NCBI GenBank assembly: GCA_016214035.1
Contig: JACRPF010000004.1
Span: 208,322 to 272,321 of the forward strand
From: Spirochaetota bacterium
GTDB lineage: Bacteria > Spirochaetota > Brachyspiria > Brachyspirales > JACRPF01
Reading direction: 5' to 3'
DNA: 64,000 nucleotides
Both the position numbers and the translations under genes were made by a program. Below the pieces are notes generated by a model. That model ran no database searches. It was not told the DNA's origin and saw only the letters and a program-made list of their open reading frames with translations. This document shows, in pieces, positions 41,214 to 44,633 of this stretch (position 1 is its first letter; each line of letters begins with the position of its first letter).

Positions 41214-41795
41214 TCACCGCACGCTTGGGGCTGACATCGACGAACGTTTGTCGATGCTTTCCACCGCAATTTCGATGTTCTTGATGTTGTCAACGCCGAT
41301 GCCGACCACGTCGATAAGACTGCGGCGGACATCGTCCTTGATCATATCGCCCGTCGAGGTGATGCTCCGGCGCGAACTCACGCCCACGCGAAGCGAGACC
41401 TGCAGGAGATGCCGGCGGTAGACGACCTTGGCCCTGGCCTCGATGACCTCGCTGTTCTCAAGCGCGATGCGGCGCACATGGTCGCGGATGGCATCAACCG
41501 AGACATGAATATAGCCCTTCTCATCCTGGATGGTGACATACGGGTCGCTCGCCATGATGTTCGAGAACAGCGTCATCACGCCGACGATGAACACCGCGAC
41601 AAAAATGACGCCCCAGAGCAGCGAGTAAACATTCGCCGCGAACACATATTCATTGATGAAGCCGTGCACACTGGCGACGACGTTCATCAGAACATGGCTG
41701 TTATAATACTGGCCGATAAGTCCTACGCCGAGACAGAAGATGAATAAATAGATGATTACCTTGAAAACAGACGAGATGATATTAATCGGATTCAT
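41214..41795 (-). CDS. amaP: AmaP-like alkaline-shock membrane anchor protein
   Basis: 193 residues from MNPINIISSVFKV at 41795, with AAGGAT upstream. Two membrane helices (about 5-25 and 50-80) precede a cytoplasmic domain resembling Asp23 itself (GYIHVSVDAIRDHVRRIALE...). In Staphylococcus AmaP tethers Asp23 to the membrane. Its start lies 14 bases inside the asp23 gene, and the three-gene set is intact. Confidence 0.85.
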   Translation of the reverse strand: MNPINIISSVFKVIIYLFIFCLGVGLIGQYYNSHVLMNVVASVHGFINEYVFAANVYSLLWGVIFVAVFIVGVMTLFSNIMASDPYVTIQDEKGYIHVSVDAIRDHVRRIALENSEVIEARAKVVYRRHLLQVSLRVGVSSRRSITSTGDMIKDDVRRSLIDVVGIGVDNIKNIEIAVESIDKRSSMSAPSVR

Positions 41796-42216
41796 GCAGA
41801 TATCCTTCCTTCTTGTTTTTCGCCACAACGCTTATGCCGTGCACGTTCACGTTCACTCGCGCCACGAATACGCCGGTCATCTCCTCAACGCGCTGTTTGA
41901 TCACACGCTGAAGCTCGGCGGCGACATCCTGCACCACGGTACCATACTGCACGATTATTGAAACGTCGATTTGAACGGCGTTGCGCTGTTCGGTCTCTTT
42001 GCCCACATTGCGTATGTAGATGCCTTCGGCAAGCTCGCCCTGGAGAAGTTTCGCGAAACCGTCCACGATGCCTTCGGTGAATGAGACGAATCCATTCACC
42101 TCGGCCGCCGCGTTCATGGTGATATCGGATATCACCTCGTTGGCTATGCGTACATCGCCGTCGGCCTCATGCGGAATGCCGGCATCATCATAAAACACGT
42201 TCCGATTACGCCACAT
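41782..42216 (-). CDS. Asp23/Gls24 family envelope stress protein
   Basis: 144 residues. Typical Asp23 features: VRIANEVISDITMNAAAEVNGF and the later VSIIVQYGTVVQDVAAELQRVIKQRVEEMTG. Known best from Firmicutes, where Asp23 coats the inner face of the membrane through AmaP and where the related YqhY gene lies beside accB-accC. The same linkage is seen here, one base after accC. Function in stress or fatty-acid supply is inferred from that context. Confidence 0.9.
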   Translation of the reverse strand: MWRNRNVFYDDAGIPHEADGDVRIANEVISDITMNAAAEVNGFVSFTEGIVDGFAKLLQGELAEGIYIRNVGKETEQRNAVQIDVSIIVQYGTVVQDVAAELQRVIKQRVEEMTGVFVARVNVNVHGISVVAKNKKEGYLHESD

Positions 42217-42217
42217 A

Positions 42218-43606
42218 TTACGCCCCTTTTCCCTTTGCGGGTTTCTTCTCCGGGGCTTTTTCTTTGAGGTTATGCTCTTCGAGGAATTTCGTGGTTACTT
42301 TGCCCTGCAGAAATACCGGGTGCTCCATTATCTTCTGATGAAACGGTATCGTCGTCGGTACGCCGGAAATGATGGCTTCCTCGAGAACGCGTTTCATGCG
42401 GCTGATTGCTTCCATTCGGTTCGCGCCGTGCACCAGGAATTTAGCGATGAGCGAATCGTAATGAGGAGGAATGCTGTAGTCAGAATAGACGTGACTATCG
42501 ATGCGCACGCCGAAACCGCCCGGGAAATGCACGCGTTTGATGGTGCCCGGCGAAGGACGGAAATCGTATTCCCAGTCCTCGGCGTTGATGCGGCATTCTA
42601 TGGCATGACCGCTTACCTTGATATCATCCTGCGTGTAGCGGAGCTTCTCGCCCATGGCAATGAGTATCTGCTCGCGCACGATGTCGACGCCCGTCACGAG
42701 TTCAGTGACCGGATGTTCAACCTGTACACGGGTGTTCATCTCCATGAAGTAGAAGCTGCCTTTATCATCGACGAGGAATTCGATGGTACCTGCGCCCTGA
42801 TAACCGGCGAGCTGGGCACCGCGCACGGCGGCTTCGCCCATCTTTTTCCGGAGTTCCGGCGTCATCACCGGCGACGGCGACTCTTCAAGGAGTTTCTGGT
42901 GGCGCCGCTGCAGCGAGCAGTCACGCTCGCCGAGATAAATGACATTGCCGTGTTCGTCGGCGAGAATCTGTATCTCGATATGCCGGGGATTCTCGATATA
43001 TTTTTCCATGTACACGTCGGGATTATTGAACCCGATCTTCGCTTCATGCTGCGCGATGGGAAGATACTGTCTGATCTCGGCGTCGCTGCGGCAGATGCGC
43101 ATGCCTTTACCGCCGCCGCCCGCAGTGGCCTTCAGAATGACCGGAAACCCGATCTCCTTAGCCATTGAGATTGCTTCTTCGGCATCTTTCAATATTCCGG
43201 TTCCCGGCGTCACCGGCACACCGGCTTTTTTCATCGTCTCGCGGGCGTTCGCCTTGTCGCCCATCTTGTTGATGACTTCGCGCGACGGCCCGATGAATTT
43301 TATATTATGTTCGCGGCAGATATCCGAGAACGACGCGTTCTCCGACAGAAAGCCGTAGCCGGGATGTATCGCATCGGCTCCGGTGATCTCGCATGCCGAG
43401 ATGATGCGCGGAATATTCAAATAACTTTCACGTGACGGCGCGGGCCCGATGCAGACATCCTGATCCGCAAAACGCGAGTGCAGTGATTCCTCGTCCGCCT
43501 GCGAATGCACCGCGACGGTCGGGATGCCGAGTTCCTTACACGCACGCACCACGCGAAGCGCAATCTCGCCGCGATTGGCTATGAGCACCTTGGTAATTTT
43601 TGCCAC
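42218..43606 (-). CDS. accC: Acetyl-CoA carboxylase, biotin carboxylase subunit
   Basis: 462 residues, standard length plus a Lys-rich tail. Biotin-carboxylase N-domain ([20 protein letters not shown]), ATP-grasp with Gly-rich [13 protein letters not shown], and the catalytic [14 protein letters not shown]. The basic C-terminus ([15 protein letters not shown]) is an addition. It carboxylates biotin on a carrier protein with ATP and bicarbonate. Its natural carrier would be the accB product 12 bases upstream, but that protein lacks the usual biotin Lys (see accB). Confidence 0.96.
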
Positions 43607-43618
43607 GACATGCCCCCT

Positions 43619-44089
43619 TTATTTCAGACGGAAAATCGGCTGGCCGTATTCGACCGCCTGCCCGTCTTCAACAAGAATCTCTACAATTTTCCCTTCAGCT
43701 TCGCTTCTGATCTCATGTTTTATCCCCATGAATTTCAGCGTACCCACCACCTGACCGGCGGTGACCATGTCGCGAAGTTTGACGAATGCATCGCTTTTCT
43801 CGTCCTTGGCGCGGAGAAATATTCCGACACCGGGAGAAATGACATCATGCGTGACCTCAACCGGCACCACTTCGACAGGCGCCGCAGCCGGAGCGGGTGC
43901 ATCCTTTGCAGGTTTCGCCTTGGGCGCCTTGGGTTTCACCGTCCGGATGATCTTGACATTGGCTTCACCGCGGGAAACGGAAATTTCCTCCACCGTGCTG
44001 CCGTCAAGCGCATCGATAAGCGCGTTGAGTTCAGCGACACCGATAGCGCCGCCCGATACAGTCTTCTTACTCTTTGACTCTTTCGACAT
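43619..44089 (-). CDS. accB: Biotin carboxyl carrier protein AccB lacking the canonical biotinyl lysine
   Basis: 156 residues in classical BCCP order: N-terminal helix (about 15-50), an Ala/Pro/Lys linker (about 52-75), then the biotinyl domain (about 80-156) with its thumb (ISPGVGIFLRAK) and final GQAVEYGQPIF. Where BCCPs read EAMK before a hydrophobic pair, this protein reads KFMGIKHEI: the acceptor Lys is Gly122 (GGG codon at 43724-43726). The nearest Lys, 124, is two residues along the hairpin. The frame is clean, so this is not a sequencing break. It may be a non-biotinylated regulator like plant BADC proteins, or a variant modified elsewhere. Its start lies inside the efp 3' end. Confidence 0.87.
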   Translation of the reverse strand: MSKESKSKKTVSGGAIGVAELNALIDALDGSTVEEISVSRGEANVKIIRTVKPKAPKAKPAKDAPAPAAAPVEVVPVEVTHDVISPGVGIFLRAKDEKSDAFVKLRDMVTAGQVVGTLKFMGIKHEIRSEAEGKIVEILVEDGQAVEYGQPIFRLK

Positions 44090-44633
44090 AGGTATTTGTC
44101 CTCGTATCTATACGCAATTTTTCGCCAATCTGAATGAATAACGGTACGTTGACCCTGAGACCCGTTTCAAGCGTTGCGGGTTTTGTTCCGCCCGACTGCG
44201 TATCGCCCTTGAATCCCGGCTCGGTATACGTCACCGCAAGCACCACATGCACCGGAAGACGCACCGCGATGACTTCGTCATCATAGAACTGGAGATCCGC
44301 TTCCATATTCTCAAGCAGATAATCCTTCGCGTCGCCGACGATAGTCTCGGGAACGGGAAGCTGGTCGTAATTATCGAGGATCATGAAAATATAGCCCTGC
44401 GTATCTTTATAAAGATACTGGGCTTTTTTAAATGATATTTCGGCAAGTTCAACCGAGTCTGTCGAGCTGTAGCTTTTTTCAAGCACATTGCCCGTTTTCA
44501 GGTTTTTCAGCTTCATGCGCACCTGGGCCTTGCGCTGCTGCTGCCGATGCAGTCCGGTCTCAAGAACCAGATAGAGTACATTATCGATAAGTAAGGTTTC
44601 GCCCTTGCGGACGTCGTTCGTTCCGACTGCCAT
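44067..44633 (-). CDS. efp: Elongation factor P with atypical tip loop
   Basis: 188 residues, all three OB-like domains present (KOW-like start, TETGLRVNVPLF and the C-terminal IDTRTNTYVERV). EF-P rescues ribosomes stalled at polyproline. The loop that carries the modified Lys34 or Arg32 (PGKGxAF in most) reads HRQQQRKAQV here: the tip position aligns with Gln33, with Arg34 and Lys35 next to it. Modification by EpmA or EarP would not be expected at the usual place. Lies between rpmE and accB, the common efp-accB-accC order, overlapping accB by 23 bases. Confidence 0.93.
   Translation of the reverse strand: MAVGTNDVRKGETLLIDNVLYLVLETGLHRQQQRKAQVRMKLKNLKTGNVLEKSYSSTDSVELAEISFKKAQYLYKDTQGYIFMILDNYDQLPVPETIVGDAKDYLLENMEADLQFYDDEVIAVRLPVHVVLAVTYTEPGFKGDTQSGGTKPATLETGLRVNVPLFIQIGEKLRIDTRTNTYVERVKE

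Follow-up and report, generated by a model that had tools for sequence, protein, structure and literature searches.

What can a BCCP do once the lysine that accepts biotin has been lost from it, and its gene stands in an operon with the only biotin carboxylase found in the genome? This question is raised by one gene, hereafter the Lys-less accB, located in a window of 64,000 nucleotides (the whole stretch of DNA analysed) from a Spirochaetota bacterium (assembly GCA_016214035.1, contig JACRPF010000004.1). The features needed to follow the argument are listed below, with positions counted from the first nucleotide of the window.

42218..43606, minus strand: accC, biotin carboxylase, the sole one found in the source genome (TIGR00514, 746 bits)
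43619..44089, minus strand: Lys-less accB, a Lys-less BCCP paralogue of 156 aa (open reading frame, profile searches and AlphaFold2 model), composed of an N-terminal helix (residues 18-29), a hairpin (35-48) and a biotinyl barrel (81-156)
43646..43651, minus strand: codons 147-148 of the Lys-less accB (Glu-Tyr), a pair retained by Lys-less copies and gone from unlinked EAMK copies
43724..43726, minus strand: codon 122 of the Lys-less accB (GGG, Gly), the biotinyl-lysine position (sequence and alignment)
44067..44633, minus strand: efp, elongation factor P, overlapping the start of the Lys-less accB; the order efp, Lys-less accB, accC is common to many relatives

The biotin-accepting lysine of the E-A-M-K motif is absent from the encoded protein, which reads KFMGIKHEI where BCCPs read EAMKMMNEI or similar. 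The replacement of EAMK by KFMG (residues 119-122), as reported in the initial annotation, is read directly in the sequence, the GGG of codon 122 being the complement of CCC at 43724-43726 (surrounding sequence: GTLKFMGIKHEI). The same annotation described a well-preserved biotinyl domain, which agrees with a Pfam Biotin_lipoyl match of 46.6 bits, above the cut-off of 22.1, and with an intact barrel in an AlphaFold2 model built with 12 family rows. In this model, the barrel reached a pLDDT of about 90 or more, and superposed on E. coli BCCP (4hr7_G) at 0.7 Å over 76 columns and on Arabidopsis BCCP1 (9a87) at 0.9 Å. Both the biotinyl barrel fold and the N-terminal domain of BCCP are thus present, the helix and hairpin of the latter being modelled with a pLDDT of about 75. 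The protein shares with E. coli AccB (TIGR00531) its length of 156 residues, its N-terminal helix and hairpin, its barrel and an efp-accB-accC type of position, but it differs by the missing biotin lysine and by a score under the curated cut-off, the BCCP equivalog TIGR00531 of NCBIfam giving 82.3 bits over the whole protein for a threshold of 115.2.

As the sole catalytic residue is gone, a decaying pseudogene or a sequencing error had to be considered. We give this explanation practically no credit: reading frames are open in 30 genomes with dN/dS values of 0.06-0.18, which rules out decay, and a base error at 43724-43729 is ruled out by the loss of the lysine in at least 29 other genomes. 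These figures come from the BCCP-like genes and neighbourhoods that we read in 52 of the 393 genomes of the same phylum (presumably Spirochaetota), 30 of which encode a Lys-less BCCP, i.e. at least 30 in the phylum. The biotin-lysine site is occupied by Gly in 23 of these proteins, His in three, Asn in three and Gln in one; one of them (L199, in G070) reads EAMH, having lost only the lysine of the motif, and may represent an intermediate stage or a loss of its own. In comparisons of congeneric species, the dN/dS of the Lys-less gene ranged from 0.06 to 0.12, and reached 0.18 between the source and its family member; values for the EAMK copy (see below) fall in the same range, several dS estimates being near saturation. 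Judged from these substitution rates, the Lys-less gene is under purifying selection. The accC-linked copy of the other 22 genomes has kept its lysine, as EAMK or ESMK; for these genomes the best match was read, and additional unlinked copies may exist there.

The gene could also be maintained as a carrier using another attachment residue (Lys124 or another lysine) or another prosthetic group. The source protein does have Lys124, which the initial annotation had put forward as a possible new attachment site, and Lys104 occurs in 24/30 Lys-less members. However, attachment at Lys124 is not supported by the alignment, where this residue is found in just 3 of the 30, and Lys104 lies outside the hairpin and is also present in 24 of 25 unlinked EAMK copies, which makes a carrier of this kind very improbable.

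Biotin is more readily assigned to a second protein of the same genome. The second accB with EAMK and the biotin ligase, both proposed at the outset as genes to look for, were both found: a 167-aa BCCP (EAMKMMNEL; 151.3 bits, passing the BCCP cut-off) is encoded on the same 368-kb contig, 138 kb from the Lys-less accB, and the genome holds one biotin protein ligase, one biotin carboxylase (the accC adjoining the Lys-less accB) and two separate carboxyltransferase genes resembling accA and accD. The EAMK gene is solitary, with a class I tRNA synthetase and a short-chain dehydrogenase as neighbours in the source genome, mutS in G043, and an aminotransferase and a methyltransferase in G089. Across the phylum, 26 of the 30 Lys-less genomes were found to encode an EAMK copy at a distance from accC; the other four (G042, G052, G070 and G120) are 80-86% complete and yielded no unlinked EAMK copy. 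A dedicated EAMK search in the incomplete G040, G042, G070 and G052 found one in G040 only, at a contig edge. A single accC was present in 17 of the 19 genomes where any accC was found. The initial reading, in which the acc operon encodes a BCCP mimic and the true BCCP is encoded at another locus, is thus supported, and extended to a phylum-wide pattern; its qualification as regulatory is less compelling, an assembly role fitting no worse.

The two copies are old paralogues according to their phylogeny, computed without the four motif columns. Grouping the two copies of the source lineage together, as expected from a recent duplication, was rejected (p-AU 0.012). The unlinked EAMK copies, with the exception of one long row, are set apart from all else by a 97/96 branch, and constraining all 25 of them together was not rejected (p-AU 0.53). 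All 30 Lys-less rows fall on the same side of one weakly supported branch (69/76), with one origin in 65% of bootstraps, and include a well-supported core of 19 rows to which the source belongs (95/94).

Comparison of the paralogues further indicates that each lost what the other retains, and this reciprocal loss is evident from residue counts, which describe related sequences rather than independent events. The biotin lysine is found in none of the 30 Lys-less proteins, in all 25 unlinked EAMK proteins and in all 23 accC-linked EAMK proteins. Conversely, Tyr/Phe148 is kept in 30/30 Lys-less, 0/25 unlinked EAMK and 22/23 accC-linked EAMK proteins, and Glu147 in 26/30, 1/25 and 22/23, respectively. 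The aligned position of E. coli BCCP carries Glu-Phe, and the Glu-Tyr of the 12/12 outgroup sequences follows by construction, because the pattern of the GTDB scan contained VEY. Lys-less copies are also changed at Pro97 (kept in 1/30), Tyr92 (5/30) and Gly106 (7/30). A tight turn would readily accommodate the Gly or Asn found at the lysine site of 26 of the 30 proteins, in agreement with a fold that would have been kept for the predicted binding. A literature search for E119K or E147K mutants of BCCP returned none.

The genomic context suggests with what this fold might bind. L31, efp, the Lys-less accB, accC, asp23 and one further gene follow each other on the minus strand; the end of efp and the start of the Lys-less accB overlap by 23 bases, and 12 bases separate the end of the latter from accC. 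As the Lys-less accB starts within efp and stops so close ahead of accC, its co-expression with accC is likely from the gene arrangement. The Lys-less gene adjoins accC in 24 of the 30 genomes, mostly as efp, Lys-less accB, accC, and lies near a contig end in G063. In five genomes of family f29 it stands apart from accC; these BCCPs (L203, L214, L217, L218 and L220) read EVLG or ESLG, and each genome has an EAMK copy elsewhere. Directly after accC, at 41214-42216, the window holds an Asp23-family gene and the further gene, probably AmaP-like, as does G001.

E. coli AccB is reported to act on the transcription of its own operon, and the N-terminal part of the Lys-less protein could similarly act on that of efp, Lys-less accB and accC, the barrel being conserved because the protein must fold or dimerise. 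Such regulation would be in line with the operon position and with the retained helix and hairpin of the N-terminus, but we regard it as improbable, since the barrel is conserved like the rest, with specific residues kept (Tyr/Phe148 in 30/30), and Pfam shows no DNA-binding domain in the protein.

Our preferred reading, which we consider probable, is that the Lys-less protein acts, in the manner of BADC, as a non-catalytic subunit: bound to AccC, it would help to assemble or regulate acetyl-CoA carboxylase, the biotin being carried by the unlinked copy; we infer both the binding and its effect. The protein would dock on AccC through its retained N-terminal helix and hairpin, with the Glu-[Tyr/Phe] part of the barrel perhaps adding a putative contact, and would form part of the biotin carboxylase subcomplex together with the unlinked EAMK BCCP, the latter being the one that would carry carboxybiotin to AccA/AccD. 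The dose of Lys-less relative to EAMK protein would then determine the efficiency of enzyme assembly or the speed of the reaction, so that the Lys-less protein would work like plant BADC. A structural use of a BCCP segment is known from Chloroflexus aurantiacus BC1, where a BCCP hairpin forms a barrel that bridges a pair of biotin carboxylase dimers and that full activity requires (PMC11077971), which indicates that part of a BCCP can serve biotin carboxylase assembly apart from biotin. The BCCP of BC1 is, unlike the Lys-less protein, fused to the biotin carboxylase and biotinylated; that the two hairpins correspond is our own reading rather than the result of a computed alignment.

In plants, BADC proteins are devoid of the biotin motif and interact with both BC and BCCP; opinions are divided on whether they inhibit the enzyme or promote its assembly (PMC11926652). 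According to the earliest of these models, reviewed in the same paper, a Lys-less protein would displace the EAMK BCCP from AccC and lower the flux. Having the same fold, a retained N-terminal part and a gene encoded together with accC, the bacterial protein could be such a competitive inhibitor, but this appears unlikely: produced with every AccC it would be a wasteful brake, and its EAMK partners have lost Tyr/Phe148, a loss that no competitor need cause. An assembly partner is somewhat likelier than a pure inhibitor, because the Lys-less protein is encoded with AccC and its EAMK partner is devoid of Tyr/Phe148 in every genome read. Three observations count against the subunit reading, namely the alteration in Lys-less copies of the thumb region, linked by plant BADC work to the BADC contact on BCCP, the distance from accC in the five f29 genomes, and the weak support for a single Lys-less origin. 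More tentatively, one BCCP may have been split by complementary loss, one copy keeping the BC docking and the operon position and the other the biotin, into an obligate mixed assembly of BADC type and independent origin; we see this as possible, albeit doubtful.

Compared by description with Arabidopsis BADC1-3, the Lys-less protein shares a BCCP fold without biotin motif, the co-occurrence with a normal BCCP in one organism (here by sequence) and the proposed status of non-catalytic subunit of a heteromeric acetyl-CoA carboxylase. By contrast, BADC are plastid proteins of nuclear genes, whereas the Lys-less accB is a bacterial-chromosome gene in an operon with accC, and it is paired with an EAMK partner that lost Tyr/Phe148. 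Its origin is likely independent of plant BADC, since the tree places the Lys-less rows within bacterial BCCPs. BADC was described in 2025 as unique to the plant enzyme (PMC11926652), and our search of the open-access literature found no report of a bacterial Lys-less BCCP. Lys-less relatives were also sought in other phyla with the GTDB scan, whose best 80 loci all carried EAMK; this is weak evidence, given the VEY in the pattern and the restriction to the top matches. A 2011 survey of biotin carboxylases examined three spirochaetes and reported an acetyl-CoA carboxylase in none of them (PMC3199775).

For genome annotation, these results caution against labelling the operon copy as the working BCCP in these genomes. 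The inhibitor or assembly role of BADC being disputed, a bacterial pair present in many genomes offers an independent test in a simpler system. Other arrangements of these domains were also observed: a short BCCP-like protein with EVMK (L057) adjoins a second accC in G052, and in G042 an 861-aa frame (C297:175-2580) combines biotin carboxylase C-terminal and biotinyl domains, in addition to a separate accC.
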